Positions 13,382-32,371 of a stretch of DNA of 64,000 nt are shown here, piece after piece. The position numbers were made by a program, and so were the translations under genes. Source of the stretch: Brucella sp. 21LCYQ03. Lineage in GTDB: Bacteria; Pseudomonadota; Alphaproteobacteria; Rhizobiales; Rhizobiaceae. The stretch is taken from NCBI RefSeq assembly GCF_023554105.1, contig NZ_JAMJWE010000002.1:1-64000 (forward strand). The letters run 5' to 3'. How positions within the stretch are numbered: position 1 is the first letter of the stretch; the number at the start of each line of letters is the position of its first letter. Below the pieces are notes generated by a model. It worked only from the letters and a program-made list of their open reading frames with translations, was not told the origin of the DNA and made no database searches.

Positions 13382-13468
13382 GCCCAGATGGCGGAATTGG
13401 TAGACGCACCAGCTTCAGGTGCTGGCGCTCGCAAGGGCGTGGAGGTTCGAGTCCTCTTCTGGGCACCA
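13382..13468 (+). tRNA. tRNA-Leu(CAG)
   Basis: Complete cloverleaf with a long variable arm: acceptor GCCCAGA/TCTGGGC, anticodon stem CCAGC/GCTGG with loop TTCAGGT (anticodon CAG), T loop GTTCGAGTC, encoded CCA at 13466-13468. Its 3' end is the attachment site of the island that follows; the tRNA itself stays intact. Confidence 0.97.
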
Positions 13469-13539
13469 TTTCCAAGTCTTCAGACCACTACCGAGGTCTA
13501 GAAGCACCCCAAAAAGCCCGCGCAAGCGGGTTTTTTTGT
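13450..13539. repeat. attL: tRNA 3' end plus trailer and terminator
   Basis: Left copy of the direct repeat. It starts inside the T arm of tRNA-Leu (agtcctcttctgggcacca) and runs through the trailer to the end of a terminator T-run. It differs from the right copy at only a handful of positions, including one G of the acceptor stem that is missing on the right. Confidence 0.92.
13511..13538 (+). terminator. terminator of tRNA-Leu supplied by the island
   Basis: Stem cccgc/gcggg (13517-13521 with 13526-13530), loop gcaa, flanked by an A run and followed by seven T. It lies inside attL, so the island replaces the tRNA's own terminator, which is now at 32288-32313, with a near-identical one. Confidence 0.85.
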
Positions 13540-13576
13540 ATCCTGCGGTCTGATGTCGTCCGATTGCATCCGAGAA

Positions 13577-13643
13577 ATTTGTTGGTACATTTGTTGGTAT
13601 CGAGCCCAATACCAACAAATTCTGGAAAAGTGATACCAACAAT
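13577..13643. promoter_or_regulatory. putative integrase arm-binding repeats, left end
   Basis: Two tandem 12-bp units (aatttgttggtac, then atttgttggtat at 13589-13600) are followed by two inverted copies (ataccaacaaat at 13609-13620 and gataccaacaat at 13632-13643). The last covers the integrase ATG. The same tandem pair recurs at the island's right end. The arrangement suits arm-type integrase or excisionase sites, with possible autoregulation of the integrase. Confidence 0.6.
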
Positions 13644-14853
13644 GGCGCTGACCGACACGGCAATTAAGGCTTTAAAACAAGGTGTTAGCGCCAGAAAACA
13701 CAGCGACGCCAATGGCCTGTTTTTGTTGGTACAGCCTAACGGTTCAAAACTCTGGCGATACGCCTACCGATTCCAGGGGAAACAAAAGACGTTATCGCTC
13801 GGATCATACCCTTTGGTGAGTTTGCGCGATGCACGCACAAAACGTGATGAAGCCCGCGAATTGCTGACACAACAAATCGACCCTGGCGAGAAACTCAAAT
13901 CAGATAAGTTGCAGCGCCTCATCCAGTCTGCAATCACCTTCACCCATGTCGCCGATGAATTCGTAGAAAAATTGGAATGTGAAGGTAAAGCTGCAGTCAC
14001 GCTCACCAAGAAGAAATGGCTTCTGGATATGGCTAAGGCCGACTTTGGTCAAAAGCCAATCCATGAAATTAAAGCACCCGAAATTCTGCTAGCACTCAAG
14101 AAGGTTGAGGCGAAAGGTAATTACGAAACCGCCCGCCGACTTCGATCCACCATCAGCCAAGTCTTCCGCTATGCCATCGCTACTGCACGCGCGGACAATG
14201 ATCCGACATTTGGACTGCGCGGCGCTCTGATTGCTCCCACTGTCACCCATAGAGCCGCAATCACTGAGAAAGATAAATTCACCGGCCTAATACGATCCAT
14301 ATGGGAATATCAAGGAAACCCAGAGACGCGTATTGCCCTTAAATTGATGGCGCTGATGTTTCCGCGCCCAGGCGAACTACGACAAGCGTGCTGGAAAGAA
14401 TTCGATCTTGATAAGAATGTTTGGACAATCCCCGCATCGCGGATGAAAATGCGTCGCGAACACAAAAAATACCTGAGCCCGCTGGTCAGAGAATTATTGT
14501 CAGAGCTTAAACAATATTCCGGTTACACAGATCTTGCCTTTCCAGGCATTCATTCCCGGCATCGCCCAATGAGCGAAAATACGCTGAACAGCGCATTACG
14601 ACGCATGGGCTTTACAGCTGATGAGGCAACGTCCCATGGCTTCCGAGCCAGCGCATCAAGCTTGCTCAATGAAAGTAATCTCTGGTCTGCGGATGCCATT
14701 GAAGCAGAACTTGCACATGTTGGTGCTGACGAAGTGCGCCGAGCTTACCACCGCTCCCTCTACTGGGAAGAACGGATCAAGATGATGGAATGGTGGAGCG
14801 AACAAATTCAAGGTTTTGCTTTATCCTCCAAACAGGGAGTTACATCATTTTGA
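13642..14853 (+). CDS. tyrosine-type site-specific integrase (P4 family)
   Basis: Catalyses integration and excision of the island at tRNA-Leu. 403 aa: N-terminal DUF4102-like arm-binding domain (LTDTAIKAL... GLFLLVQPNGSKLWRY), a SAM-like core-binding domain, then the catalytic domain. The catalytic domain shows the first Arg in PRPGELRQA, the box HGFRASAS, the AHVGADEVRRAY region and the nucleophile Tyr in AYHRSLYWEER. The start is ATG 13642 (MALTDTAIKAL), not the open frame from 13564, because family members begin this way. The ribosome binding site ggaaaag lies 11 nt upstream. Directly adjacent to attL, as expected. Confidence 0.95.
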   Translation: MALTDTAIKALKQGVSARKHSDANGLFLLVQPNGSKLWRYAYRFQGKQKTLSLGSYPLVSLRDARTKRDEARELLTQQIDPGEKLKSDKLQRLIQSAITFTHVADEFVEKLECEGKAAVTLTKKKWLLDMAKADFGQKPIHEIKAPEILLALKKVEAKGNYETARRLRSTISQVFRYAIATARADNDPTFGLRGALIAPTVTHRAAITEKDKFTGLIRSIWEYQGNPETRIALKLMALMFPRPGELRQACWKEFDLDKNVWTIPASRMKMRREHKKYLSPLVRELLSELKQYSGYTDLAFPGIHSRHRPMSENTLNSALRRMGFTADEATSHGFRASASSLLNESNLWSADAIEAELAHVGADEVRRAYHRSLYWEERIKMMEWWSEQIQGFALSSKQGVTSF

Positions 14854-15761: not shown

Positions 15762-15862
15762 GCACTATTTTTTCCGAAATCGGAATTTTCTTTCTGAATT
15801 CGGACAATAAATATTCTGCACAAATTAGGTCTCGTTCATTCTTCACCCTACGAGGTCAAACG

Positions 15863-16069
15863 ATGAACGAGATCCAGAGTTTCCCGACTACCGGCTTTGT
15901 CCGATTGAACCAAATTATCGCACCACGCGGCCTAATCCCTGTCAGCAAGTCTACTTGGTGGGCAGGCGTAAAAGATGGGCGCTTCCCTAAGCCCTTAAAA
16001 CTCGGCCCCAAAATAACGGTCTGGCGTGCAGAAGACATTCACGCTCTCATTCAAAAGGGAGTCCGCTAA
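15863..16069 (+). CDS. AlpA-family excisionase/regulator
   Basis: 68-aa helix-turn-helix protein. The pattern GFVRLNQIIAPRGLIPVSKSTWW, then GRFPKPLKLGP and VWRAEDIHALI, is the AlpA/winged-HTH excisionase signature. Family members act as transcriptional activators or directionality factors for neighbouring integrases. The ribosome binding site acgagg is 7 nt from the ATG. The stop codon overlaps the next ATG by 1 nt, so the next gene is coupled. It probably binds near island ends or its own promoter. Confidence 0.82.
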   Translation: MNEIQSFPTTGFVRLNQIIAPRGLIPVSKSTWWAGVKDGRFPKPLKLGPKITVWRAEDIHALIQKGVR

Positions 16070-16485: not shown

Positions 16486-16541
16486 GCCTAATCCATAAAC
16501 GTTTCCCCTGTTGAAACTTCCGGTTCGTAAGGGCTCAAATT

Positions 16542-17648: not shown

Positions 17649-17706
17649 CATCGCCCGGTCACTATTAAATTGTTGACAATTGCGTACATCTCCACTGATC
17701 GATACG

Positions 17707-18354
17707 ATGATATTAAAATCTGAAAATGCCCTCAAAATGCGGGTCTCTCACTATGAGCAAAAAATGTTTAAGCTTAAACAAATAACCACGGGTTCAATTG
17801 CGATTGAGGTCCACGATCAAGACGCCATCTTTGAAACTATTATTGATGATTTCAATGACGACCTGCAAAAGCTTTCCGATTTCGTTACCTCATTAATTGC
17901 AGGCGGCTATCCGGCTGTTTATGTATCAGATCATAAAAATTGCTTATGGACATATGATGAAGATGAAGCATTGAAGCTTCATTGTGAATTTGATCCAAAT
18001 GCGCGAAATCTGCTTTCCAAAATTTCAATAAAAACAAACCGCTCTGCTTTAATCAGCGCGCTGCAAAATCTTGTCCATGACATTGCTTTTCACGAGAATT
18101 TCGCACGGGGCTATTTGTTTTTCGCAAATGGTGGTGCAGAGGAGGATAAGTTTTATTACGTTGTTGATCGCGAGTGGAGCGAAGGAGTGAAAGCTGGCCG
18201 CTTTCCTGATGATATTTATTTGAAAGATGCTTATGAAGATCGCCGGCTTATCGAAAAGTTTCCGCTGAATGAGATTGAAATGGCAATTCTCAAGGAAAAT
18301 CAGGAAATGCTGTTAAGTACATCTCCCGAAAGACACAACATTATTCCGGCATAA
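17707..18354 (+). CDS. hypothetical acidic protein
   Basis: About 215 aa from the ATG at 17707; the frame stays open to a TTG at 17680. No family recognised. It is rich in Asp and Glu, has no signal peptide or membrane segment, and contains short ordered stretches such as YPAVYVSDHKNCLWTYDEDE and GYLFFANGGAEEDKFYYVVD. It lies between the recombinase and an oppositely oriented Mrr nuclease, with the two ends only 5 nt apart. A TTGACA hexamer at 17673-17678 could be a -35 box, but no matching -10 is clear. Could be a defence accessory or an anti-restriction factor; no evidence favours either. Confidence 0.6.
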   Translation: MILKSENALKMRVSHYEQKMFKLKQITTGSIAIEVHDQDAIFETIIDDFNDDLQKLSDFVTSLIAGGYPAVYVSDHKNCLWTYDEDEALKLHCEFDPNARNLLSKISIKTNRSALISALQNLVHDIAFHENFARGYLFFANGGAEEDKFYYVVDREWSEGVKAGRFPDDIYLKDAYEDRRLIEKFPLNEIEMAILKENQEMLLSTSPERHNIIPA

Positions 18355-18359
18355 TGCCA

Positions 18360-19295
18360 TTACAGCCCTTTAAACCAGTCAGCAGAAACTGTGACTTTCT
18401 CGACTGTCTCCGTTTTTACACCCAGTTCATATTGCTTGAGCAAGTCGCAAAGACGTTCGCCATCAATCAGGTCAATGGCAATGGCACCATCACGCGTTGC
18501 TTCGTCTGAGGCTTGCGAGGTGAAATTGCCAGTGGTGATGAACAGTCCCTTATCAGCCCTACCCTGCAATGCGCCGCGAAAATCGCGGATGTCCTTCGCA
18601 CCCACACTACCTTTCCAGCGCTTGCACTGAAAATAGACTTGAAAGGAGACAAGGTTCACGCGAAGAACGCCTACACCATCTATGCCGCCATCACCGGTTT
18701 TGCCCCTGACCTCAACTTTAACGAAACCGGCCTCTCGCAATAATCGTTGTGAGAGTCGTTCAAACGCGTCTGGTGCAATATTTAACAAAGCGTTCAATAA
18801 TTCCGCGCGCCAATCAGCATCGACAACCTCATCAATATCTGTGCCGATATTCATGGTCGCGGGTGCAACCTGCATCACACCATTCTTACCCTTATCGGCC
18901 AATCGCTTCAGCCGCGCACGTTCCCGCTCTTCAGCGTTGACCTGCTTATGAATTTGCTGGGTTTGCGCAAGCGTGGTGATTTTTTCACCCAGCTCGGTCA
19001 ATGCCCAGACACCACGCGATGAATTCTCTAACGCTTTTCCCCGTTTGAGGTAGGTGCGCGCCCATGCGAGATAATAATTCAACCTTCGATATTGGCCATT
19101 TGGCATCATTAAAGACTGCTCATCTTCGGAAATTGCTTCTAACTCAACAACCTGCTCATCAAGTTCTTGAATGGACGCAGAGCCTCCGAGCGACTTAAGC
19201 GCTTCAACAACAACCAGCATCATTCCTGGCAAATCCGGGAATCCGTCAGCTTCGATAATGAATTTCCGCAATTTCGCTCTCCCGCAACTATCCAA
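18360..19295 (-). CDS. Mrr-type restriction endonuclease
   Basis: 311 aa with an N-terminal winged-helix Mrr_N domain (residues about 20-110), a basic linker and a C-terminal Mrr catalytic domain. The nuclease core is intact: the Asp of GGIDG at about 206 and QCKRW at about 223-227, giving the D...QxK form of the PD-(D/E)xK fold, followed by FITTGNFTSQA and IDLIDGERL. Mrr-family enzymes cut modified DNA (type IV restriction). It is divergent from the methyltransferase operon that starts 118 nt away. It might protect against foreign methylation, or belong functionally to the adjacent system. Confidence 0.9.
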   Translation of the reverse strand: MDSCGRAKLRKFIIEADGFPDLPGMMLVVVEALKSLGGSASIQELDEQVVELEAISEDEQSLMMPNGQYRRLNYYLAWARTYLKRGKALENSSRGVWALTELGEKITTLAQTQQIHKQVNAEERERARLKRLADKGKNGVMQVAPATMNIGTDIDEVVDADWRAELLNALLNIAPDAFERLSQRLLREAGFVKVEVRGKTGDGGIDGVGVLRVNLVSFQVYFQCKRWKGSVGAKDIRDFRGALQGRADKGLFITTGNFTSQASDEATRDGAIAIDLIDGERLCDLLKQYELGVKTETVEKVTVSADWFKGL

Positions 19296-19412
19296 ACCCT
19301 TTGTTTCTGCTCTTATAATTTAATATCAGCTTTAAACAATAACTTGCTCAGTAGTTGATTGTCGCAAACGGTTCAGCCATAGATTGGTGAAACACGGGGC
19401 GTGCGACTTACT

Positions 19413-22091
19413 ATGATGAATCCCACCGAAATTGCCGATGCGCTCGATCAAATTGCCAGTGCGCCATTTGATCCAGCAGAGTTCGGCTTTGCTTTTGCTG
19501 AAGCGACGGACAATGCCAAAGCAACGATCTCAAAGCTGCGGACAACGACCAATAAATCGGATTTGCCGGGTGGTGTTCTTCTCAATCGCAAGTTCCACTA
19601 TGCCCCGGCAGACCCAGGCATGGTCAGCAAAACGCTGGATGCCTTGCGTACCAGCAAAAAGACTGCATCCGCAAAGCCGGCTATTTTAGTTGCAACTGAC
19701 GGCGAAACCATTGCCGCAGCGCACCCCAAAAGCGGTGACACACTGCATTGCCCATTTTCCGAGCTGGGGCTGCATTTTGGTTTCTTTCTGCCAGCTGCGG
19801 GCAAGGATCGCTATAAGCCTGCCGAAGAAAATCCAGTTGATGTCAAAGCGGCAGGAAAACTTGCCAAGCTCTACGACACATTAATGCGTGCTAACCCGGA
19901 ATGGGTAGCAGATGAGCGCCGCCATGATATGAACCTGTTCATGACGCGGCTGATTTTCTGCCTGTTTTCCGAAGATGTTGGCATATTCAGCGAAAACCAG
20001 TTTTCTCATGCTGTGTTTTCATACAGTGGCAATAAGGGCGAACACGCGCATTCGACAATAATCAGCGCATTCAGCGCTATGAACCTACCCAAAGACCAGC
20101 GCAAGGAATTGCCTGGCTGGGTAGCCGATTTTGAGTATGTGAACGGTGGACTCTTTGCTGGGCACATTGATGCACCGCATTTTGATCCGCTCTCATTCCG
20201 CTACCTGCGCGATGCGTGCGATCTGGATTGGAAGCTCATCAATCCGGATATTTTCGGCTCTATGATCCAGTCAATCGCCGATCCTTCTGCGCGATCCGAA
20301 CTGGGTATGCATTATACCTCGGTGCCTAACATCATGAAGGTACTGGGACCCTTGTTTCTGGACGATCTTGATGAGGCGATTAAAAAGGCCAATGACAAGT
20401 TACCTGCACTTCGTGCCTTATTGCAGCGGCTGGCTCATATCAAAGTGTTTGACCCAGCATGTGGTTCAGGAAACTTTCTTGTTGTTGCTTATCGCCAATT
20501 GCGTGAGCGTGAGATACGCATCCTACAAAGAATAGAAGAGATCACCGGAAACAAACAAAATGAACTTTGGTCATCGGTACCACTATCAAATTTCTATGGC
20601 ATTGAAATAACTGATTTTGCGGCTGAAACCGCAAAATTGGCGCTATTCATTGCAGAATATCAGGCCAATGCGCGGTTTAGAGATGTATTTGGCCGTATGC
20701 CCGCCTTGCTGCCACTACGTGACGGCGGAAATATTGTCCATGGCAATGCTCTGCAACTGAACTGGGAACAAGTCTGCCCTCCACCTCGAGATGGAGAGGA
20801 AGTATTCATTGCAGGTAATCCACCTTTTCTGGGAGCGACATATAGAAAACCCGAACAAAGAGCTGACTTTGCAAATGTTTTCGAGAATAAAATTGAGGGG
20901 TATGGAAGACTTGACTTCAGCGCAGCTTGGATGTTTTTGGCATCAAAATACATTTTGAATATAGGTGCCCGTTCAGCATTAATCACGACCAGCTCTACGG
21001 TTCAAGGTTCGGCGGTAGAACCACTGTGGTTGCCGATCTTCGAGAATGGCGCCAGAATATTCTTCGCTTACAGACCCTTCAAATGGGCGAATAATGCAGC
21101 AAAAAATGCCGCCGTTGAATGCGTTATCATTGGATTGTCGAGTGAAAAATCCGATGTAGCACGCTTATTTGACGACAATCACATCGTTCACACGACCCAC
21201 ATAAACGCATACCTAAGCGATGGCCCAGCGATATTTATAAGCGCATGCAGAGATGCGATATTTAGTTTACCTCAAATGGGACCCGGCAATTTTCCATATG
21301 ATTTCGGCCACCTCATACTTTCAACTTCTGAAAAAGATGAAATCATAGCATCGTACCCAAATGCTAAAAGATTCATACGTAAGTTTGCAGGATCGAAGGA
21401 AGTTATCCATTCAATACCCCGTTATTGCTTATGGATTTCAGACGATGACCTGAATGAGGCATTGGAAATAATTCCAATCGCTGATCGTATCACATCAGTT
21501 GCCCAAGATCGTTCCAAAAGCAGTGACGCTGGCACTCGTCGCTTAGCGGCTCGCCCCCACCAATTTCGTGAACACAAAACTTCAGAACACCATTCAATTC
21601 TAGTACCACGTACTAGTTCGGAGCATCGTGATTATCTACCGGTAGAGTATGCAGACGCAAATATTATCTCATCAGATAATAATCATGTAATTTTTGACGG
21701 GCCAGACTGGTGCATTGCGTTAATTGCCTCACGACTGCATCTGGTATGGATCGCCACCGTTTGCGGAAGACTAGAATCGCGTTTCCGCTATTCCAACACG
21801 TTGGGCTGGAACACATTTCCAGTACCGAAGTTTTCTACGGAACAGCTTGAGCAACTAACCGCCTCGGCGCGACAGATCTTGAAAACCCGCTATCAGCACC
21901 ATCCCAAAAGCATTGCAGATCTTTATGATCCCGAAGAAATGCCAGAAGATCTACGAGCAGCCCACAAGGCCAATGATGAGCTTTTGGAGACAATGTATAT
22001 CGGACGGCCATTTCGCAACGATACCGAGCGGCTGGAAAAGCTGTTCAAGCTCTATGCGGCACGGATAGAGAAAAAGGCCAAGGGGGCGTAA
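19413..22091 (+). CDS. MmeI-like adenine DNA methyltransferase (possible type IIL/IIG enzyme)
   Basis: 892 aa from ATG 19413; a GTG at 19401 is the alternative. The segment ERRHDMNLFMTRLIFCLFSEDVGIF near residues 165-190 is typical of the MmeI-family N-terminal/helical region. The SAM-binding motif DPACGSGNFLV is near 345, catalytic motif IV NPPF near 468, then a target-recognition-like region and a helical end. This marks an N6-adenine methylase. I cannot identify a clear nuclease triad in the first 150 residues, so cleavage is probably delegated. The helicase gene starts 3 nt after the stop and the GIY-YIG gene 3 nt after that, implying one operon and one machine. Confidence 0.9.
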   Translation: MMNPTEIADALDQIASAPFDPAEFGFAFAEATDNAKATISKLRTTTNKSDLPGGVLLNRKFHYAPADPGMVSKTLDALRTSKKTASAKPAILVATDGETIAAAHPKSGDTLHCPFSELGLHFGFFLPAAGKDRYKPAEENPVDVKAAGKLAKLYDTLMRANPEWVADERRHDMNLFMTRLIFCLFSEDVGIFSENQFSHAVFSYSGNKGEHAHSTIISAFSAMNLPKDQRKELPGWVADFEYVNGGLFAGHIDAPHFDPLSFRYLRDACDLDWKLINPDIFGSMIQSIADPSARSELGMHYTSVPNIMKVLGPLFLDDLDEAIKKANDKLPALRALLQRLAHIKVFDPACGSGNFLVVAYRQLREREIRILQRIEEITGNKQNELWSSVPLSNFYGIEITDFAAETAKLALFIAEYQANARFRDVFGRMPALLPLRDGGNIVHGNALQLNWEQVCPPPRDGEEVFIAGNPPFLGATYRKPEQRADFANVFENKIEGYGRLDFSAAWMFLASKYILNIGARSALITTSSTVQGSAVEPLWLPIFENGARIFFAYRPFKWANNAAKNAAVECVIIGLSSEKSDVARLFDDNHIVHTTHINAYLSDGPAIFISACRDAIFSLPQMGPGNFPYDFGHLILSTSEKDEIIASYPNAKRFIRKFAGSKEVIHSIPRYCLWISDDDLNEALEIIPIADRITSVAQDRSKSSDAGTRRLAARPHQFREHKTSEHHSILVPRTSSEHRDYLPVEYADANIISSDNNHVIFDGPDWCIALIASRLHLVWIATVCGRLESRFRYSNTLGWNTFPVPKFSTEQLEQLTASARQILKTRYQHHPKSIADLYDPEEMPEDLRAAHKANDELLETMYIGRPFRNDTERLEKLFKLYAARIEKKAKGA

Positions 22092-22094
22092 ATC

Positions 22095-24167
22095 ATGGTT
22101 GAAGTCGTAAACATGGCCTATGGCCGTACGGGCGCGTCGAAAACAACCAATGCACTGGGGCAGAGACCGATGCAGGAACGCGCCTATGCGGCGCGCGGCG
22201 CGCAGTTTCTGCTTTTGAAAGCGCCACCCGCCGCTGGCAAAAGTCGCGCGTTGATGTTTGTCGCACTTGATAAGATGAACCATCAGGGACTGGCAAAGAC
22301 GATTGTCTGCGTACCGGAAACCTCTATTGGCAGCTCGTTTCGCTCAACCGATCTTACGTCTTACGGCTTCGATGCCGACTGGAAAGTCGAGCCGCGCTGG
22401 AACCTGTGTCTGAGTGGCACGGAAGACGGCAGCACCAACCAGAAGGTAAAGGCATTTCAAGACTTTTTGGCATCCGATGCGAAAGTGCTCATCTGCACCC
22501 ATGCGACCTTCCGCTTTGGTTTTGATGCCATTGAAAAAGAACAAGGTATTGAAGCATTCGACAATGTTTTCATCGCTATCGATGAATTCCATCATGTTTC
22601 TGCCGCTGACAATAACCGTCTTGGTGAAATTCTGCGCCGTTTGATCACGCGCGAGCAAGCGCATGTCATGGCCATGACTGGCTCTTACTTTCGTGGCGAT
22701 GCGGTTCCGGTGTTGCGTCCAGAGGATGAAGACAAGTTCACCACCGTCACCTATTCCTATTATGAGCAGCTTGATGGCTACGAGTTCCTAAAATCGCTCG
22801 GCATTAATTATAGCTTCTATAAAGGAAACTATATCAATGGTTTGCCTGAAGTGCTCGATACTGATCTCAAAACCATTATCCATATTCCGCATCGCGGATC
22901 TGCCGAAGCCTTTGACGATAAATATGGCGAAGTGGGACGTATTCTCGACCTGATCGGCAAGCATATTGGCCGTGAAACGGAGACGGGCTTTGATCTTGTT
23001 GAAACACTTGCTGGCCGCATTCTGAAAATTGCAGATCTGGTCGATGACGGGCCTGAGCGCGACATTGTCAAAGCTGCACTATCACGTGAAATCAAAGGAA
23101 AAGACGGCAAGCGTGATGATGCAGCCGACCGTGCCAAGGTGGATATTATTATTGCGCTGGGCATGGCTAAGGAAGGATTTGACTGGGTCTGGTGCGAGCA
23201 TGCCCTGACCATTGGCTATCGTGCATCGCTGACCGAAATAATCCAGATTATCGGGCGCGCCACACGCGATGCGCCGGGCAAACCAACTGCACGCTTCACC
23301 AATCTGGTTGCAGAACCCGGCGTTGAAACCGGTCTTGTTGCAGATGCCGTCAACGATATGCTCAAGGCCATATCAGGCGCGCTCCTGATGGAGCAGGTAT
23401 TGGCTCCGAATTTCAAATTTTATCGTCGTGAAGATGGTGACATACGCGATCCGATCAACGTTGACGGTCAGGGCACAGTTACCATCGGCATCAAGGGTTT
23501 GATGGAACCTCCCACAGATCGCGCACGCGATATTTGTGAAAAAGATATGCATGAACTGGTCGCCAAAGCCTGTCAGGCGATGGATCGACGCACCGTTGCA
23601 CCTGACGTCGCGCCCGAAGTTGCCAACCAAATGGTGCTGACCGAAATCATCGAACACAGCTATCCCAACCTGAATGCAGATGAGACCGAAGCCATTCGCC
23701 AAGATCTTGCAGCGCGCATGAATATTCTGACGCTCGCACGCCGTGAAGCCGAACAGAGCTTTGCAGAAACGCCGGTCGACTATGATAGTGCTGGTCGTGA
23801 TGATGACGACAACGAAGCGTCACCCAACACGCTTTTGAAGTTGGTGAGGAAATTTATCAATGTGCAGGAACTTGACATTGATTTGATCGACAGTGTCAAC
23901 ACATTCAAAGAACGCTTCGAGATTGCTTCTAAGGCACTCGATGCGTCCATTTTGCAGCATATTCAATCGGCCATGGTGGCCCAACGCATTCAGATGACTG
24001 ATGACGAAGCTCGCACCTTATGGCCACGGATAAAGCGTTTTCGGGCGATTGAGGGCCGTGAACCAAACGTTCATTCTGCTGATGCTTTAGAAAAACGAAT
24101 GGCTGAAGCGCTTGCCTGGTTAAAAGCTAAAAAAGCTGAAGCCTTGCGCGCACAGATGGTAAACTAA
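22095..24167 (+). CDS. DEAH-box superfamily 2 helicase of a methylase-linked system
   Basis: 690 aa, SF2 helicase: Walker A PPAAGKSR near residue 45, DEFHH (motif II) near 163, MTGSY (motif III) near 195 and QIIGRATRD (motif VI) near 384. A C-terminal half of about 280 residues has no recognised domain but ends in helical, charged segments. No nuclease motif is evident. It probably translocates on DNA for the adjoining methylase and GIY-YIG nuclease, in the way type I and III restriction helicases do. Ribosome binding site agggggc lies about 8 nt before the ATG, inside the end of the methylase gene. Confidence 0.88.
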   Translation: MVEVVNMAYGRTGASKTTNALGQRPMQERAYAARGAQFLLLKAPPAAGKSRALMFVALDKMNHQGLAKTIVCVPETSIGSSFRSTDLTSYGFDADWKVEPRWNLCLSGTEDGSTNQKVKAFQDFLASDAKVLICTHATFRFGFDAIEKEQGIEAFDNVFIAIDEFHHVSAADNNRLGEILRRLITREQAHVMAMTGSYFRGDAVPVLRPEDEDKFTTVTYSYYEQLDGYEFLKSLGINYSFYKGNYINGLPEVLDTDLKTIIHIPHRGSAEAFDDKYGEVGRILDLIGKHIGRETETGFDLVETLAGRILKIADLVDDGPERDIVKAALSREIKGKDGKRDDAADRAKVDIIIALGMAKEGFDWVWCEHALTIGYRASLTEIIQIIGRATRDAPGKPTARFTNLVAEPGVETGLVADAVNDMLKAISGALLMEQVLAPNFKFYRREDGDIRDPINVDGQGTVTIGIKGLMEPPTDRARDICEKDMHELVAKACQAMDRRTVAPDVAPEVANQMVLTEIIEHSYPNLNADETEAIRQDLAARMNILTLARREAEQSFAETPVDYDSAGRDDDDNEASPNTLLKLVRKFINVQELDIDLIDSVNTFKERFEIASKALDASILQHIQSAMVAQRIQMTDDEARTLWPRIKRFRAIEGREPNVHSADALEKRMAEALAWLKAKKAEALRAQMVN

Positions 24168-24170
24168 ACT

Positions 24171-25397
24171 ATGTCGCCGCGCCCTAGTCTTGACGATATT
24201 TTTAATGAGCCTGATGAATTCGGCCTGCTCAATGTCCGCCCTAAAGCACGCGGTGGTCAATCCACAGATGATGAGCGCAATGTCGCAATCGTTCAACAAA
24301 CCAACGCGTTCTTCGACAACCATGGCCGCCTTCCTGATGGCAATGCGGATGATCATGATGAAATGCGACTTGGCACGATCTGGGAAAAGATTTCAGCCAA
24401 TCCGACAGAGGCGATGCATGCAGCCGATACGCATGGCTTGCTGCAAAGTTTCAATCTAAGAAAAACGGAACGAACTCTTAGCTGGCGCGATGACGTAGCA
24501 GCCGATGAAATTCCGGCTTCACTTGATGATATTTTCGGTGAGGATGGCATTGACGTGGATGCAGACCATCTCTCAATCCGCAATATAACCCCTGCGACTA
24601 TGCGCAATGTGCCTGACCACCGAGCCGAAAATCGCCCATGCCGGGATTTTGCCAGTTTTGCAGATCGTTTTGAAGAGATACAGGAAGCCCTCGACAGCGG
24701 AAAGCGCGTTGCCACTATTGTGGAAGACCGAGCAATCATCGAACCCTTTGAGGGAGATTTTTTCATTCGCAATGGGTTGCTCGCCTATATTGCTGAAAAG
24801 ACAGAAATGACATCGCGAGGTGGATCACGCGACCACCGCCTGCGGATTATCTTCTCCAATGGTACGGAAAGCGACCCGCTAATGTCGTCCTTTCGTAAAT
24901 CGCTCAACGAAGACAAAACCGCCCGCGTCATCCAGCGTGAAGGCCTTGGGCCGCTCGATAAAAAGTGGCAGTCGGACAGCCCTGACATTTCCGGCACAAT
25001 CTATGTTGCACGTAGCCTTTCGACAGATCCGACAGTCGTTGAAGTCAGCAACATTTTATACAAAATCGGGGTCACATCGCAGGACGTCAAAAGACGCCTT
25101 GCCGATGCCCGCAATGACCCGACATTCTTGATGGCACCCGTTGAGCTGGTTGCAACTTATGAACTTAAAAACCTCGCGCGTTCAAAAGTAGAAGAGCTGC
25201 TACATCGTTTCTTCGAAGCTGCACGCCCTGCCGATTTATTTGTGACAGATCGGTTTGGAAAAAGAATCCGTCCACGTGAATGGTTTTATGTGTTGCCAGA
25301 ACACGTGAGCCAGGCGGCAAAACTCATTCAGGACGGCACCCTGCACGAGTATCGCTATGATGTCGGGTCTCAGCGGATAACAAAAAGACACTCGTGA
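24171..25397 (+). CDS. T5orf172/GIY-YIG-type nuclease of a methylase-linked system
   Basis: 408 aa. The C-terminal third is a T5orf172/MUG113-type GIY-YIG domain: TIYVA near residue 275 and YKIGVTS near 296 (the GIY and YIG elements), an Arg-rich helix KRRLADARND, and the metal-binding Glu in VEELLHRFF near 340. The N-terminal two thirds are not recognised; the hexapeptide SLDDIF occurs twice, at residues 6-11 and 117-122. As the third gene of the methylase-helicase operon (3-nt spacing), it is the likely cutting subunit. Known T5orf172 proteins occur in phages and restriction contexts. Confidence 0.85.
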   Translation: MSPRPSLDDIFNEPDEFGLLNVRPKARGGQSTDDERNVAIVQQTNAFFDNHGRLPDGNADDHDEMRLGTIWEKISANPTEAMHAADTHGLLQSFNLRKTERTLSWRDDVAADEIPASLDDIFGEDGIDVDADHLSIRNITPATMRNVPDHRAENRPCRDFASFADRFEEIQEALDSGKRVATIVEDRAIIEPFEGDFFIRNGLLAYIAEKTEMTSRGGSRDHRLRIIFSNGTESDPLMSSFRKSLNEDKTARVIQREGLGPLDKKWQSDSPDISGTIYVARSLSTDPTVVEVSNILYKIGVTSQDVKRRLADARNDPTFLMAPVELVATYELKNLARSKVEELLHRFFEAARPADLFVTDRFGKRIRPREWFYVLPEHVSQAAKLIQDGTLHEYRYDVGSQRITKRHS

Positions 25398-26126
25398 GTA
25401 TATAGGCCCGACCAAAATTGCCATATGAATGGTCGGCGCTTATGATTTATCCAAAGGACATCTTACGTCAGAATATCTGATTTGCGTCACGACATGCTCT
25501 CAGAATTCATACTCGAGTGTGTCTACTTGGGGGCCTGACTGATAGGTTTGGGTGCGAATGTCGGGAAGCAGTCACATGTTTGGGTCCGGTGATATAATTG
25601 AGTGAATGACGTTGCATTTTGCTCTGTGAAACTTTTGACCGTACGCAGCCTATGGTGGTTGGTATTTCATGTAGATTCGGCTCGACCAAACCGTGATCAA
25701 ACTTTTTAAATGGATTGAGGAACTCACAGTAAATCTGAAGTCCCATACGGTACTTTCGAGCACTCACCGATACATCCTTACATCGAGACAGGTTTCATTT
25801 GGGGGCACTGGGCGTTCCTGCGCTTATGATGTACTGACCAGAAATGGCGCATTTCATAGCGACTCTTGTCTTGGAACTATCCCCATCGACCAAAGATCAT
25901 TTTGCCGCTTTCCCCAAGAGCAGGACCCGCAGAATCCCCTCTCCATCCTGCATATCAGCCATGGTCAAGAGAGGGCGTGTCGAAGCAGCGGCTCAGACAA
26001 CCGGTCAACGATCCAAGCTCACAGCTCATAGAGATGAAAAAACTTTGTTTCTCTGGCAGTTTATTGCTAGCCTGAGTCGAATCTCGTAAATTAAACTCTT
26101 TCTGTAAGTAAGAATGCTACAAAGAC
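25398..26126. other. 729-bp stretch without a convincing gene
   Basis: Frames of up to 112 codons exist on both strands, but they overlap one another, lack ribosome binding sites and translate to low-complexity or compositionally odd peptides. I recognise no domain, terminal inverted repeat or insertion sequence. It separates the methylase operon from the Gabija-like pair and should contain the promoter of the latter. It may be a decayed gene or the seam between two acquired modules. Confidence 0.5.
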
Positions 26127-28178
26127 ATGCATATTGAGCAGATTAGAATTGAGAATTTTAGATTATTGCAGAAATGCTGCATTGATATGCGTGAAACAAC
26201 GACTTTGCTCGTAGGGAAAAACAATACTGGAAAGACATCTTTCGCCGTATTGCTCGAAAAATTCCTCGAACGACCGGACACATTTTCTTTCACAGATTTT
26301 CCGCTCAGTCTGCGGGAGGCGATTTTCAAAATAGACGATGAGACGAGCGTCGAAGAACTCGCGATTAGAATGGTGCTCCGCATTTCCTATACTGAGGCGG
26401 ATGATCTCGGTATTCTTTCCGAGTTCATGCTGGACCTTGATCCAGCAAGGCGGCACACGAGTATTCTGTTCGAATGTACAATCGATAAGAAAAAGCTTCT
26501 TCGCGTTCTCCCGTCTGATGAAAAAGAACGTAAGAAGTTCATTGAAAATAACCTTTCAGGAAAATTTCTGGACGTAAGAGTATATGCATTTGATGATTTT
26601 GGGCATGTCGGCGAACAAGCTTACTACATGTCTCACCGTAATCAGCTTGAGGAGAAGGAGCGCACCAGCCTGCATGCTCTCCTAAACTTCCAGGTCATCC
26701 ACGCCCGCAGAAACGTTGTAAGCTCAGAGGATGCCGGACGCGGTTCAAAGCCACTTTCTGCGATATCAACCAAATTCTTCCGTAAACGAAATATTGAAGC
26801 AGATGCTTCCGTTGAAGCAGACGATGACACTAGCGCAGATAAGCCCGGCGATGGGAGCATAGAAAAGCTTAGATCTATTTTGGCTGATATCGACACGAAA
26901 CTAGGCGAGCAATATAAGGAAGTTTTCGGCAGCTTTCTAACAAATTCCCGTGACTTTCTGGACATTGGTAATTTGAAAGTGGTCTCTAATATTCAGTCCC
27001 AGTCTCTCATTGAGAATTCATCACAGGTTATCTATGGCGACACAGATAACTTTCTTCCAGAGCACTATAGCGGCCTCGGCTATCTAAATATCCTGTATCT
27101 GCTTTTACAGATCGAACTTTGCCGTGACGATTTCGCAACGCGTAATGCGCCGTTGAACCTTTTGTTGATTGAGGAGCCCGAGGCTCATACGCACCCGCAG
27201 ATGCAATATGTGTTTGCGGGCAAAATCCATAGATTGGTATCTGAGATACCTAACCTGCAAGCTTTAGTAACTACTCATTCGTCCCACATTGTATCAAAAT
27301 CAAAATTTGAAGATATTAGATATCTATCAAGATCGTCGGCCACAAGCCCGGTCACTATCAAGAATTTTCATACCGATCTCAGTAAGGAATACGATGAGCT
27401 TGGTGCCGATGGAAAGGCGTTATTTAAATTTTTGAAACAATATCTCACCATCAATTCGGCTGAGCTGTTTTTTGCCCATAAGGCTATTTTTATCGAGGGT
27501 ACAACTGAACGCATTCTCCTCCCATTGTTTATTGAGATGCACGATAACGATAAAGAGAATAAAGAGGTCACCGAGGCAGGCGGCCTGTCATCTCAAAACA
27601 TCTCAGTACTGGAGGTTGGTGCGAACGCGCGTGCTTTTGTACCATTCCTGAATTTCATCGGTGTCCGTACTCTAATAATTACAGACATTGACACAACCAA
27701 GTCCGTAACCAACGAGAAAACCGGAAAATCTAGCTACAATGCATGGCAGGTAGAGGGCTCGACACACACATCAAACGAAACTCTCAAACACTTCCTTTCG
27801 GCTCCGAAAGACAATCCCGTCGAGTATCAAGAATGGCACAAGCGTCTGCTGAGTGGCGAAATTGCATGTGATGACGGGCACATTAAGATTGCATACCAGG
27901 TAAAAGAAAATGGCTATCACGCAAGAAGCTTCGAAGACGCTTTTATTGCAAAGAATTTTGAAAAGATAAGAAGTAGAAAAGACGGCCTGGAAGGGCTCAA
28001 AAACTTTAAAGACATCGATGAATTTGAGGGGAGCGATTATTACGCCCTCACGGAAAGCATTCTAAGTAAGAAATCCGACTTCGCTGGATCTCTTCTATAT
28101 GCAGCATTGGTTGACGGCGAGACATGGGAAGCGCCCGAATATATTATGGATGGTCTGAAATGGATTCACAGAAATTGA
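26127..28178 (+). CDS. OLD-family ATPase-TOPRIM nuclease (Gabija GajA-like)
   Basis: 683 aa. N-terminal ABC/SMC-type ATPase: Walker A GKNNTGKTS at residues 30-38, Walker B LLLIEEPEAHTHPQ near 346 and the switch His in TTHSSHI near 385. The C-terminal TOPRIM nuclease has the metal Glu in IFIEGTTE near 453 and the acidic pair IITDIDTT near 517. The pairing with a UvrD-like helicase immediately downstream defines class 2 OLD, the Gabija arrangement. It is about 100 residues longer than the characterised GajA (my recollection is about 580), with an acidic low-complexity insert near 230-245. The next gene starts inside its 3' end. Confidence 0.9.
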   Translation: MHIEQIRIENFRLLQKCCIDMRETTTLLVGKNNTGKTSFAVLLEKFLERPDTFSFTDFPLSLREAIFKIDDETSVEELAIRMVLRISYTEADDLGILSEFMLDLDPARRHTSILFECTIDKKKLLRVLPSDEKERKKFIENNLSGKFLDVRVYAFDDFGHVGEQAYYMSHRNQLEEKERTSLHALLNFQVIHARRNVVSSEDAGRGSKPLSAISTKFFRKRNIEADASVEADDDTSADKPGDGSIEKLRSILADIDTKLGEQYKEVFGSFLTNSRDFLDIGNLKVVSNIQSQSLIENSSQVIYGDTDNFLPEHYSGLGYLNILYLLLQIELCRDDFATRNAPLNLLLIEEPEAHTHPQMQYVFAGKIHRLVSEIPNLQALVTTHSSHIVSKSKFEDIRYLSRSSATSPVTIKNFHTDLSKEYDELGADGKALFKFLKQYLTINSAELFFAHKAIFIEGTTERILLPLFIEMHDNDKENKEVTEAGGLSSQNISVLEVGANARAFVPFLNFIGVRTLIITDIDTTKSVTNEKTGKSSYNAWQVEGSTHTSNETLKHFLSAPKDNPVEYQEWHKRLLSGEIACDDGHIKIAYQVKENGYHARSFEDAFIAKNFEKIRSRKDGLEGLKNFKDIDEFEGSDYYALTESILSKKSDFAGSLLYAALVDGETWEAPEYIMDGLKWIHRN

Positions 28179-30244
28179 ATCCGGTAGATCGGATTGTCGA
28201 AATTATTGGTGATGGTAGAAGCTTTATCCTTCAAGGCGGCGCGGGAAGCGGCAAAACCGAGAGCCTGAAGAAAGTCATTCAGAAAGCGCTTTCGGTCAAT
28301 CGGAAGCTCAAAATTGCATGCATAACGCATACGAATAAAGCTGCCGACGAGATAGCCGATCGTATTTCGGCTGACATAAAGGTCTCAACTATCCACTCGT
28401 TTCTGGGCGGGATAATCTCGCCATACAAACGAAACATTCAGCATGTTTTTCCCGCCCTATTCGAGCTTCCTGCTTTTGTCGGCTTAGGGGATGAACATTA
28501 TGGCGGAGACGAAAAGCTCAGAAAGTTAGAGGAACATGGGCGTTACAAGAAGGCATACGAGAAATTGGAGGGTCGTCGCCAGACTGTTCTAGGCGAATTA
28601 ACACCTAAGGTAATCGGGAAGCGGGAATACGATAAGACCCCGGAGACGTATATCGCGCAGATGAACGAATTAATTGCTGGGCTAAACCAGGAAATTCGCG
28701 CAAAACTAGCAGTCCGAAAATCCGACGAATTCTTCTACAACGAATCAAAATTCGACAATTTCAACGAGCCCTCATTCGGGCATGACGGCTTGATCGCCAT
28801 TGCTTGCAAGATGTTCTATGAGTTCCCGCTGCTAGGAAAGATTGTATCGGATCGGCATGATTGCATCTTCATTGATGAGTATCAGGATACGAACGCGGAT
28901 GTAATACGCGTTTTGCTCCGCTGCTTACCCAAGCCATCACAAACAATCATTGGCTTGTTTGGAGATTCTGAGCAGGCCATTTACTCAGATGGTATAGGGA
29001 GTGCTCAAGAGCATATCGACGCAGAGGAAATCGTTCTTGTGGAGAAGGACGACAATTACCGTTGCTCCCCACAGGTCATAACCTTCGCCAATAAGTTTCG
29101 CACAGACGGATTAAAGCAAGAAGTAGCGCTCAAAACACTCGATGACGGCACGATTGAACCTCCTGAGAGCAGAGAAGGCAGCGTAAAGCTGCTGTATGAT
29201 TTCGCCCCAGACAAAGTAGACACGGGTGATAAAACACAAGATCGGAAAACCAATGCCGCGTTGTTTCGTGAAGCGCTCGATGATCTTGTTGGAAGCGTCA
29301 GCCAAGATTTCCCCGGCTACGTCCAGCTAAAACTCACGAACAAGTCGATTGCCAATGATGTAGGTTTTGGACGGCTCTATCAGATATTTGACTATCGGTA
29401 CTCGGAGCCCCGAGACCGAATGCGCAAAACACTCGATCGATTGCAGTTTGATGAAATAGTCAATTTGACGACATTGCATCAGAGCCTGCCCGGGAACAGG
29501 CGCTCATACAATCGCTTGATCAGCGGTCTTCGAAAGCGGGGATTTTCGATTTCTTCGGTCTCTGACAAAACCGAGCTGGACCAGATGCTACGTGCACTCA
29601 CTGCCAAGGACCTTTCCGCTTACAAAGCAGTGGAATTTGCAGCGAAAGCTGGGCTGATCAGAATTTCAGAGAGCCACGCAGCGTTTTTGAAGCGCCGTGA
29701 CGAGCTGTTAGCGCGTCTTAAGGAGGATCCCGTATTCAAGGCTTTTGAAGCTCTACATACCAGTGGCCATAAAACTAAAGCGCAGATGCTCAAGGAAATT
29801 GAGACTGCACCGACACAGAACCTAAATGCGGATTTAATTGAGACCGAATACGACGACCGGGCCAACGAAATCAAACAAAAGGCATTCTTTACCGCATTGT
29901 TTTCAGACGAACTTCGATTTGAAGAAGTCTTGTCGTTCTACGACTACGAGGAAAATGATGGCGGCTTCGCCACGATGCATAAAACGAAAGGGACCGGGAT
30001 AGAGAACGTGCTGCTCGTAATTGACGAGTACGGATGGACGACGGAATACGATTTTGTGAATTGTTTTAATGATGGGGCCCCATCTACGAAAAGGGATATT
30101 GCATCACGGAAGCTTCTATACGTGGCTGCCTCGCGAACGAAAAAAAATCTAGTCTGCGTCAGATTGATGAATGATCAGGCAGAGATGGAAAGTATATCAC
30201 GATATTTTTCAGATTCTATTCAAGTGAAGTCAGGATTTAATTAG
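28160..30244 (+). CDS. UvrD-like helicase (Gabija GajB-like)
   Basis: 694 aa from ATG 28160, overlapping the OLD gene by 19 nt. SF1A helicase motifs are Walker A GGAGSGKTES at residues 26-35, motif Ia THTNKAADEI near 66, motif II FIDEYQDTN near 237, GDSEQAIY near 272, and the C-terminal MHKTKGTGIENVL and LYVAASRTKKNL (motifs V-VI). It is clearly longer than the roughly 500-aa GajB prototype, with extra middle sequence at about 110-230 and 480-600. In Gabija GajB senses or unwinds DNA termini and activates GajA; the same division of labour is inferred here. Confidence 0.88.
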   Translation: MDSQKLNPVDRIVEIIGDGRSFILQGGAGSGKTESLKKVIQKALSVNRKLKIACITHTNKAADEIADRISADIKVSTIHSFLGGIISPYKRNIQHVFPALFELPAFVGLGDEHYGGDEKLRKLEEHGRYKKAYEKLEGRRQTVLGELTPKVIGKREYDKTPETYIAQMNELIAGLNQEIRAKLAVRKSDEFFYNESKFDNFNEPSFGHDGLIAIACKMFYEFPLLGKIVSDRHDCIFIDEYQDTNADVIRVLLRCLPKPSQTIIGLFGDSEQAIYSDGIGSAQEHIDAEEIVLVEKDDNYRCSPQVITFANKFRTDGLKQEVALKTLDDGTIEPPESREGSVKLLYDFAPDKVDTGDKTQDRKTNAALFREALDDLVGSVSQDFPGYVQLKLTNKSIANDVGFGRLYQIFDYRYSEPRDRMRKTLDRLQFDEIVNLTTLHQSLPGNRRSYNRLISGLRKRGFSISSVSDKTELDQMLRALTAKDLSAYKAVEFAAKAGLIRISESHAAFLKRRDELLARLKEDPVFKAFEALHTSGHKTKAQMLKEIETAPTQNLNADLIETEYDDRANEIKQKAFFTALFSDELRFEEVLSFYDYEENDGGFATMHKTKGTGIENVLLVIDEYGWTTEYDFVNCFNDGAPSTKRDIASRKLLYVAASRTKKNLVCVRLMNDQAEMESISRYFSDSIQVKSGFN

Positions 30245-30337
30245 TCAGATTGGTTTCCGTTATTCCAACAACCTAGCCCCATGTTTCTACCTATTAAGAG
30301 AGAAACCGCGCGTAATTGGATCAACGCTTTTCGGTCA

Positions 30338-30649
30338 TTAAGCATGCGCACGATCAGCGATAATAAGTCCGATCCGTTTGACATCCTCTTTGACGGTTCC
30401 AGAGCAGACGTGGCCGAGCGGCATCGCGCACGATTGAGTGATGAACCGCAGGTCGGCTTCTTCATCTCGGGACAACATTGTGATGTCGGCATTGGGAACT
30501 ACCGCCGACAGAAGTTGCTTGCAATGGATGGCAAAGTGGCAGGACGCCGAACCGACGTCGGAATGAACGATCAAGAGGTCTACGTCGTGCGCTGGCGTCA
30601 TCCCATGAAAGCGTGATCCGAAGCCGTAGATTTGAACGCTCTCCGTCAT
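30338..30649 (-). CDS. minimal nucleotidyltransferase-domain protein
   Basis: 103 aa carrying a Pol-beta-type nucleotidyltransferase core: GFGSRFHG at residues 9-16 (the GS motif), HDVDLLIVH with Asp22 and Asp24, and a third acidic residue in ADITML at about 55. A short helical tail follows. Such small NTases modify proteins or RNA (for example by AMPylation) or act as defence enzymes. ATG overlaps the stop of the upstream gene (4 nt, ATGA), so it is the third, coupled gene of the minus-strand HNH operon. Target unknown. Confidence 0.8.
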   Translation of the reverse strand: MTESVQIYGFGSRFHGMTPAHDVDLLIVHSDVGSASCHFAIHCKQLLSAVVPNADITMLSRDEEADLRFITQSCAMPLGHVCSGTVKEDVKRIGLIIADRAHA

Positions 30650-31056
30650 CCGCGTCGGACGGCCTTCTCTCGCTCGCGTTCCGCTGGAGTCTGATAGTTC
30701 CAGAAGTCCTCTTGTCCCAGAGCTCCCATGAACTCAGCAATAGTGAACAGACCAACTTGCGCAGCGCCGCAATGCTCCCGCGCATCCTTGGTGTAGCCAC
30801 ACCAATTGGAATTGATGATCACGACATCCACATGACCGAGCTGGGTTTGTACGTCGATGAACTGGGCGACGCCGAACGAGTAGCATTCGCAGATGAAAAC
30901 ACGAAGGACTTGTCCAGTATCGCGCGTTAGCTCGTAAAGCCCATTTCCTGCATATGCGAGATTCGCGACCCGGCCATGGCTCTTCATCCGATCCTCGAAA
31001 AAGCGAAAATGGCCATAATGGCTCGGCCAAGGGAAAAGGTTGCTACGCGCCGCCAT
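30646..31056 (-). CDS. unknown protein, possibly a divergent restriction-endonuclease fold
   Basis: 136 aa, no named family. The middle reads YELTRDTGQVLRVFICECY, then VDVVIINSNWCGYTKDAREHC, then VGLFTIAEFMGAL. The order of strand, ECx strand, INSNW...T.DA helix and final GLF strand recalls Mrr-like proteins, with E57 in ICECY as a potential catalytic acid, but no clear Lys partner is present. Four Cys are noticeable. It overlaps the HNH gene by 14 nt and the NTase gene by 4 nt, so the three are one translational unit. The function is a guess from context. Confidence 0.7.
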   Translation of the reverse strand: MAARSNLFPWPSHYGHFRFFEDRMKSHGRVANLAYAGNGLYELTRDTGQVLRVFICECYSFGVAQFIDVQTQLGHVDVVIINSNWCGYTKDAREHCGAAQVGLFTIAEFMGALGQEDFWNYQTPAEREREKAVRRG

Positions 31057-31756
31057 TTGCTGCCCTCCTTATCCGATCGGCGAACTCTGCGGGAAAACGC
31101 AGAACGCCAGCATATGATATCTCGTCGTTGACCCAGCTCTCGTAGCTACGCGAATGGAGTAAAAACGCCGAGATGGCCTTTTGGTCGTCAGGGTCGAGTG
31201 CACCTCTGTGCCGCTCGAGCAGACCAGTGATCTTCCGGTTGTTCGGCACGATGGTGGACAGACGCTCGGAAACCCAGATGGAGAAGACTTCATCGTTGTG
31301 AGGCTCACTCAGGGCGAGCTCCGACATGGGGCCATAGGTTAGCCAAGACTGATGATTCTCCTCGAGGAGGACCAAGATGGACTGGGCAAGCGTTTGCCTC
31401 TCGAGTGACTCGTCTGTGTCTGTACGCTGATCCACCCAGTCTTCGTGCTTGGTCTTCATCTTGAGCAATATTGCGACGGTGAAGACCCCTTCATTCTGCT
31501 TCTCGTCGATTTCGGTGTGGTGGTTGGGGCAAAGCAGGATGAGGTTAGTGTAGTCGTCGCGCTCTGCAGAAGTCTGGGAGGTATCATGGCGGTTCGCGCC
31601 AGGTTTGTTACCACGAATGTGGGCCATTTCACCTATTGTGTACGGCGCACGGCCTTCGGCTTCCCGCTGAGAGAGGCGAACACGGCAACCATCAAATGAG
31701 CAGCGACCTGCTGCGTTTGACCACAGAAGCTTGATGGATTTCTCCGTTATTGCCAT
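31043..31756 (-). CDS. HNH endonuclease-domain protein
   Basis: 237 aa. N-terminal HNH (His-Me finger) domain: Cys19 and Cys24 in RCSFDGC, GEMAHIRG with the first His at 46, the Asn in YTNLILLC at 71 and CPNHH at 76-80. The Cys residues form a zinc knuckle. The remaining 140 residues (LAQSILVLLEENHQSWLTYGPMSE onward) form a helical domain without a known name. It is the first gene of a compact three-gene minus-strand operon in the right end of the island. Likely cuts nucleic acid in response to, or under control of, the partner proteins. Confidence 0.85.
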   Translation of the reverse strand: MAITEKSIKLLWSNAAGRCSFDGCRVRLSQREAEGRAPYTIGEMAHIRGNKPGANRHDTSQTSAERDDYTNLILLCPNHHTEIDEKQNEGVFTVAILLKMKTKHEDWVDQRTDTDESLERQTLAQSILVLLEENHQSWLTYGPMSELALSEPHNDEVFSIWVSERLSTIVPNNRKITGLLERHRGALDPDDQKAISAFLLHSRSYESWVNDEISYAGVLRFPAEFADRIRRAANGGA

Positions 31757-32227
31757 TGACGAAATTTGTCCCCCGACGAATCAAACTCGATAACGACAGC
31801 TCTCGAAACAAGTTGTTCAATATTTAGATACTTCAGCCAGCTGTTTCAATACCTTCGATCCAGGCTCAGCTCATCTTGCAAAAGGCCGCTAGTGGCCAGA
31901 GGAATAACGCACAAGCAAAATAAAGTAGTGGGGCTGCTAGCTACCGCAAAGCTGACATATGTCGCGAATTGAGGGCATCATCTCGCTACACCATTGTAAT
32001 CAGTATGTGGCAAGCTCTACCTTTAAGCTGCAAAACGTGCCCGACGCACTTCAGCTTTATTGTGAATCACAGCTTGTTCATAATGCCGCAGCTTTACATA
32101 AATTGGGCGTTCAATTTTATCATGCAAATATCGGGCAACATTTTGAAATGTTGGTATATTTGTTGGTATAAAAGAAAAACCAAAACATAATAATCACTAC
32201 TAAACAAATGCTTATTAGATAATTAAC
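31757..32227. other. gene-free right end of the island
   Basis: About 470 bp with only short frames (up to 73 codons) that lack ribosome binding sites and recognisable domains. It should contain the promoter of the HNH operon at its left edge and the integrase arm-type motifs at its right edge (32145-32170). It is AT-rich. Confidence 0.6.
32145..32170. promoter_or_regulatory. putative integrase arm-binding repeats, right end
   Basis: Tandem units aaatgttggtat and atttgttggtat with a 12-bp period, in the same orientation as the left-end pair at 13577-13600. They lie 58 nt inside attR. The match of motif and period at both ends argues for protein binding sites used in recombination. Confidence 0.6.
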
Positions 32228-32316
32228 AGTCCTCTTCTGGCACCATTTCCAAGTCTTCAGACCACTACCAAGGTCCAGAAGCACCCCAAAAAGCCCGCGA
32301 AAGCGGGCTTTTTTGT
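32228..32316. repeat. attR: chromosomal copy of the attachment repeat, with terminator
   Basis: Right copy of the direct repeat, beginning agtcctcttctggcaccatt. Only the last part of the tRNA is present, with one G fewer than in attL. It includes a strong terminator (stem 32288-32298 with 32303-32313, loop gaaa, T run), presumably the original tRNA-Leu terminator before insertion. Confidence 0.9.
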
Positions 32317-32371
32317 TGTCTGCGCTAGCAGTCGAAGTACACACAGTTAAAACAGAAAATTATCCAGATAC

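Follow-up and report, generated by a model that had tools for sequence, protein, structure and literature searches.

In abortive defence systems the killing part is typically exchanged while the core stays constant. Two described systems lie close to the locus considered here: the cyclic oligonucleotide-based antiphage signalling system (CBASS), with its HNH-SAVED effector Cap5, and the HEPN/MNT pair, in which the effector HepT adjoins the minimal nucleotidyltransferase (MNT) MntA. According to PMC7641770, the DxD motif of MntA and D71 coordinate two Mg2+ ions, and GSX10DXD is the key motif of MntA for AMPylating HepT. As far as their accessible text goes, PMC3710099 and PMC12839542 deal with HEPN-associated MNT apart from HNH effectors, and the combination reported below is not described there. 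This combination consists of three adjacent minus-strand genes in Brucella sp. 21LCYQ03 (contig NZ_JAMJWE010000002.1; the 64,000 nucleotides from positions 1 to 64,000 are referred to as the window): gene 1 encodes an HNH protein, gene 2 a predicted pseudo-nuclease and gene 3 a minimal nucleotidyltransferase (Table 1). The trio, about 1.4 kb in size, is a real, mobile and conserved three-gene module, apparently unnamed in the sources searched, and in our judgement it is quite likely to be defensive. Specifically, we propose, with a probability of roughly 0.45, that it is a compact, modular defence system of the abortive-infection type in which genes 2 and 3 control the effector.

Conservation of the trio

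The three reading frames stand where a preliminary description of this DNA had placed them, with overlaps of 14 nt between genes 1 and 2 and 4 nt between genes 2 and 3. That the genes stay together is borne out in other genomes: 34 complete trios were found, the window copy included, all with the same gene order, 32 with an HNH-type gene 1 and two with a probable transmembrane type. Chance or one-off association of neighbours is ruled out by these 34 linked loci. Their hosts belong to several proteobacterial classes and, for a few metagenome-assembled genomes (MAGs), to other phyla, placements that may reflect binning errors.

Searches seeded with gene 2 matched two other genomes among 398 (3/398 with the window's own), relatives in four plasmid records, and 18 loci in a species-genome collection, two of which were the two genomes already matched. 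The trio occurs in the same order in 22/22 distinct loci of this set (window included), with hosts from Mesorhizobium, Sphingobium, Bradyrhizobium, Dechloromonas, Pseudomonas, Shewanella, Vibrio and Acinetobacter to Electrothrix, Kurthia and Ruminiclostridium MAGs; another Klebsiella record, whose gene 2 is identical, was not counted. As a guard against bias from gene 2 seeding, the C-terminal domain of gene 1 was used as a second seed and matched 5/398, 2/369, 4/199, 1/4 and 3/357 genomes in the samples searched, while a whole transmembrane-type gene 1 matched 2/85. Since the samples overlap, these seeds amount to ten distinct genuine genomes, 4/10 already known through gene 2: nine hold complete trios, and one, L064, is broken and was not counted, its gene 2 stopping after about 35–40 residues and the following DNA resembling, by eye, an insertion element. 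In a collection of viral contigs the C-terminal domain was present in 9/15 matches, comprising six full trios and three that end with the contig; the latter (L047–L049) stop within or directly after gene 1 and are left out of the complete set, and L047 and L048 seem to be the same sequence. One further trio lies on a Vibrio plasmid. Identical loci (L021 and L004; L025 and L005) were each counted once, and L007, where gene 3 is shortened to 70 aa close to an IS66 element, is counted among the 34.

Some matches were discarded. Three Firmicutes loci (L042–L044) matched the C-terminal domain at E values of 1.3e-5 to 6.0e-4 and are false: the frames are 510–516 aa long, nothing in the loci matches gene 2 or gene 3, and the L042 frame, judged by eye, resembles a flagellar cap protein. 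The other six viral matches (L052–L057) share only the HNH domain and were dropped, since neither the C-terminal domain nor gene 2 or gene 3 is matched in them; in L054 the sequence stops about 480 bp past the match, too early for its partners to be judged. The gene 2 query found no relative in viral contigs, the Klebsiella DNA was not found in Escherichia coli genomes, a plasmid search with the transmembrane-type gene 1 and its nucleotidyltransferase gave no match, and the long Vibrio gene 2 had no plasmid match besides itself and no viral-contig match.

The three genes have also diverged in concert. Distance matrices correlate at 0.93 (genes 1 and 2), 0.82 (genes 1 and 3) and 0.85 (genes 2 and 3), values reached by 0/2000 permutations (n=30, uncorrected for host phylogeny); the comparison covers 30/32 loci, with L007 and L035 left out. 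Compared with its nearest relative, that of Mesorhizobium composti, the window copy gives ratios of nonsynonymous to synonymous substitution rates (dN/dS) of 0.22 (gene 1), 0.11 (gene 2) and 0.29 (gene 3): both are under purifying selection. Since neither flank matches the Mesorhizobium composti locus over the 12.4 kb compared, the trio and about 136 bp upstream seem to be mobile as a unit.

Exchange of the HNH domain

The description of gene 1 as an HNH protein is upheld by Pfam (HNH_2, E 6.2e-5, 23.2 bits, above the cut-off of 21). C19, C24, H46, N71, C76 and H80 are invariant in 22/22 aligned relatives; we take these to be the HNH motif residues and zinc cysteines. In PADLOC (2023 models), CBASS effector and SAVED-HNH models cover gene 1 to residue 121–123 or less, one SduA model (not CBASS) reaches residue 138, and the candidate system PDC-M68A matches residues 3–114 (E 4.5e-30). 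The remainder, residues 115–237, is predicted to be all-helical, with four helices and no strands. No above-cut-off model for this C-terminal domain exists in any searched library, and NCBIfam gave no match for window genes 1 and 2. As to HEPN, Pfam gave no match to gene 1 at E≤1, a conserved Rx4-6H was not seen by eye in the gene 1 alignment, and HEPN entries are absent from the 50 matches listed for the four-helix domain, which is still compatible with a divergent HEPN. A second HNH protein encoded in the same genome (L002; G000:C445:16584-16874) shares 33% identity with gene 1 over residues 9–110 only.

The Cap5-type HNH domain, together with a nucleotidyltransferase in the operon, invites a CBASS-like reading in which gene 3 would synthesise a nucleotide messenger to switch on the HNH effector. 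However, the PADLOC CBASS effector models stop at residue 123, the predicted helices occupy the rest of the protein, and gene 3 is about 100 aa long, with Polbeta and NTP_transf_2 matches and no PADLOC match named as a CBASS cyclase. We consider such signalling highly improbable; membership of CBASS itself is ruled out, there being no SAVED part in gene 1 and no CBASS cyclase match for gene 3.

A modular system of the abortive type finds its strongest new argument in two loci, L035 and L062, in which the HNH domain is replaced and the rest of the trio is kept. At L035, gene 1 begins without HNH: its hydrophobic segment, starting at residue 19, averages a hydropathy of 2.57 over 19 residues, where none of the other 31 gene 1 proteins exceeds 1.54. 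The usual C-terminal domain comes next (genome search E 1.5e-11), gene 2 encodes 104 aa, and the genes overlap by 10 and 23 nt. The second HNH-less case, L062, has a hydropathy of 1.88 from residue 58 and overlaps of 14 and 4 nt. Both segments are, judging from these hydropathy values, probably transmembrane. With a plain hidden Markov model for gene 2, the second gene of L035 was borderline and that of L062 gave no match. Profile–profile comparison with gene 2 scored 38.5 for L035 and 33.6 for L062, the best of 47 unrelated neighbouring open reading frames (ORFs) scoring 18.4; against a profile that includes L035, gene 2 of L062 scored 32.3, which 0/100 shuffles reached (best 21.7). A gene upstream of the trio at L062 (443-1294) resembles, by eye, a membrane-anchored Mrr-type nuclease.

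The earlier suggestion that the HNH protein is the effector is thus backed by two loci where the HNH domain alone is exchanged for a probable transmembrane segment. The exchange also bears on a reading with the roles reversed, in which the gene 3 nucleotidyltransferase is a toxin modifying tRNA or other host RNA, and the HNH protein and gene 2 control it. Small nucleotidyltransferases that modify tRNA are known toxins, but the part exchanged is the HNH domain and not the nucleotidyltransferase, and three gene 3 proteins are just 82 aa long, which makes this arrangement very unlikely.

The putative control core

Gene 2 had been described as belonging to no known family. As regards sequence models this stands, for none above cut-off was present in any searched library: Pfam gave only sub-threshold matches for window gene 2, a sequence search of the PDB no match (best E 0.2), and PADLOC nothing for window genes 2 and 3 (the PADLOC scan of gene 2 covered five proteins, the NCBIfam scan window gene 2 only). 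As regards fold it needs revision, since the predicted structure resembles PD-(D/E)XK nucleases, albeit with modest structural scores; EndoMS, Can2 and MspJI are among the structural neighbours of the model, and unrelated folds rank lower in both lists. The catalytic D and (D/E)xK of this superfamily are not found in gene 2: position 59, where the catalytic Lys would stand, is Tyr in 32/32 proteins, position 57 is E in 20, N in 5, D in 4 and another residue in 3 (n=32), and positions 42, 44 and 46, in the preceding strand and turn, hold mixed residues. Gene 2 is predicted, from this model, to be a non-catalytic PD-(D/E)XK-like protein; RPB5 presumably offers a precedent for such a fold without catalysis. 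Its length is short (100–161 aa) in 27/34 trios and long (213–233 aa) in 7/34.

If the dead fold of gene 2 reads DNA and recruits the HNH protein to an invader, the nucleotidyltransferase only binding ATP or the complex, then the trio is a restriction-type system. The predicted nuclease-like fold, with the structural neighbours named above, and the HNH DNase are in keeping with this. Yet it leaves the membrane segment in place of HNH unexplained, and the invariance of GS and DxD in gene 3 (24/24 family members) suggests a role beyond scaffolding; we regard this explanation as doubtful.

The motif GSx7-10DxD is present in 32/32 gene 3 proteins and, by eye, also in L062 and L065. For the GS...DxD...D signature claimed in the preliminary description, GS and DxD are therefore secure, whereas the third Asp is present in the window copy but unconserved in the family: read by eye, the third metal-ligand site is D in 17, H in 11 and S in 4 (n=32), with N in L062 and H in L065. 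Matches at E≤0.01 were obtained to Polbeta in 15/24 and to NTP_transf_2 in 8/24 gene 3 proteins; window gene 3 alone gave sub-threshold Pfam matches only, and NCBIfam one weak, irrelevant match. Profile matches include MntA (5yep, E 0.016). Among 24 gene 3 proteins, PADLOC matches at E≤0.01 were limited to PDC-S09, PDC-M63A, PDC-M05A (entries that come without description) and one PtuB model. At L008 (8398-8643) the annotated gene 3 start (8458) omits the GS motif, which an in-frame GTG at 8398 would restore.

In the abortive-infection-type system that we favour, gene 1 would be the effector, its helical C-terminal domain serving as a switch for the HNH DNase or, at L035 and L062, for the probable transmembrane segment. 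Control would lie with a core of genes 2 and 3, whose products we expect to interact with one another and with the switch. In the uninfected cell the core would keep the effector off, probably by nucleotidylation of gene 1 or gene 2, as MntA acts on HepT; infection would perturb the core and release the effector, which would then cut DNA in its HNH form or depolarise the cell in its transmembrane form. This scheme builds on linkage, co-divergence, the identity of the HNH and nucleotidyltransferase proteins by sequence, effector replacement at two loci and movement as a unit in one pair of genomes; the folds of gene 2 and of the gene 1 C-terminal domain are model predictions, and complex formation, repression by the nucleotidyltransferase, the trigger, DNA as target and protection against phage are what we infer beyond these. 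A narrower version, in which the dead restriction-enzyme fold is itself the switch, its invariant Tyr being nucleotidylated by gene 3 so as to lock the exchangeable effector until infection reverses or outruns the lock, is a long shot.

Genomic setting and comparison with known systems

Table 1. Features of the trio and of the island that carries it (window coordinates).
Feature	Coordinates	Strand	Remarks
Gene 1, HNH protein	31043..31756	-	237 aa; HNH domain and helical C-terminal domain
Gene 1, residues 1-114	31415..31756	-	CBASS Cap5-type HNH nuclease domain
Gene 1, residues 115-237	31046..31414	-	Predicted four-helix C-terminal domain, retained where HNH is exchanged
Gene 2	30646..31056	-	136 aa; predicted PD-(D/E)XK-like fold, Tyr59 at catalytic Lys position
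Gene 3, minimal nucleotidyltransferase	30338..30649	-	103 aa; GSx9DxD
Probable mobile unit	30303..31892		90.5% identical to Mesorhizobium composti (L009); both sides without blastn match
Region upstream of trio	31757..31892	-	136 bp, shared with L009; presumed promoter region
Left repeat (attL-like)	13450..13547	+	Overlaps 3' end of tRNA-Leu(CAG) 13382-13468
Right repeat (attR-like)	32228..32324	+	92% identical; closes island just past trio
Tyrosine integrase of island	13564..14853	+	
GajA (Gabija)	26127..28178	+	
GajB (Gabija)	28124..30244	+	Convergent with trio

The trio closes off an island of about 18.8 kb (13450-32324) at tRNA-Leu(CAG), which is bounded by direct repeats, has its integrase beside the tRNA gene and carries as cargo an Mrr-type enzyme, an MmeI-type enzyme, a helicase, a T5orf172-domain protein, Gabija and the trio. 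It had been stated that the flanking genes are all defence genes. This is true of the Gabija side; past the opposite end of the trio the island stops, and the next genes encode a YhhN-family protein and an aldehyde dehydrogenase. Within the island, at 18360-25397, a divergent Mrr gene is followed by genes for the MmeI-type enzyme, a DEAD helicase and the T5orf172-domain protein, each 3 nt apart, which are possibly one composite system. A second gene with a phage-integrase domain lies at 16542-17648, and a histidine-phosphatase-family gene (12609-13229) adjoins the attachment site. In other genomes, the reverse transcriptases DRT3a/DRT3b directly follow the trio at L006 (8734-13075), and are themselves followed by a gene annotated as nucleotidyltransferase and HEPN domain-containing protein; at L011 (2239-5249, Bradyrhizobium sp. 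S69) a gap of 29 bp separates the trio from preceding SIR2 and HerA genes.

We read the trio as defensive because of effector replacement, the type of effector and these three settings (Gabija, DRT3, SIR2-HerA). Outside the window, however, defence matches are few. Among 107 neighbour proteins from 20 loci, few match PADLOC at 1e-20 (31 families, one protein each for the 25 listed; these are raw counts with no control set), three have integrase domains, and many are products of housekeeping genes. The 107 are those of at least about 180 aa among 184 ORFs, with L006 (annotated) and L017 (none that long) left out.

The same scarcity of defence neighbours suits a toxin–antitoxin or plasmid-addiction module, with an HNH or transmembrane toxin and genes 2 and 3 as antitoxin, that would stabilise mobile elements and not confer immunity. 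So do the tight gene overlaps, the toxin-like effector, and the presence of copies on Novosphingobium, Acinetobacter, Klebsiella and Vibrio plasmids and in an integrase island. However, the contigs of several copies are long, reaching 1.09 Mb (yet one long record, of 721 kb, is a plasmid), three genes including a pseudo-nuclease would be unusual for such a module, and defence neighbours are found at the window, L006 and L011. We judge this explanation rather unlikely.

The preliminary description knew of no named system with this trio, and in the libraries searched the trio as a whole matches no catalogued system; the HNH half alone matches CBASS effector models and PDC-M68A. Nor was the combination found described in the accessible passages of open-licence PubMed Central papers; no paper was found under the name PDC-M68A, and none of relevance for the entry names 9OM4 and 9XBD. 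An exchangeable effector and wide spread in a compact module follow the pattern of known immune systems.

The closest systems compare with the trio as follows. PDC-M68A has its HNH domain, but the remainder of the 253-position model fails to align to the gene 1 C-terminal domain. EndoMS and RPB5 are the PD-(D/E)XK folds closest to the predicted structure of gene 2, which differs in having no PDB sequence match and a Tyr at the catalytic Lys position; if the proposed mechanism is true, the trio would provide a clear test of the role of dead nuclease folds in immunity. Cap5 of CBASS has the same type of HNH domain as gene 1, whereas in gene 1 a predicted four-helix C-terminal domain replaces SAVED, and the partners differ. 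HEPN/MNT likewise sets a minimal nucleotidyltransferase with GSxnDxD beside an effector gene; in contrast, the effector of the trio is HNH or transmembrane, without a demonstrated HEPN RNase, an extra pseudo-nuclease gene is present, the nucleotidyltransferase gene comes last, and the third Asp is unconserved. By analogy, the trio may borrow its control from HEPN/MNT, in which case killing by a Cap5-type HNH domain and control by MNT-type AMPylation would be joined through a pseudo-nuclease.
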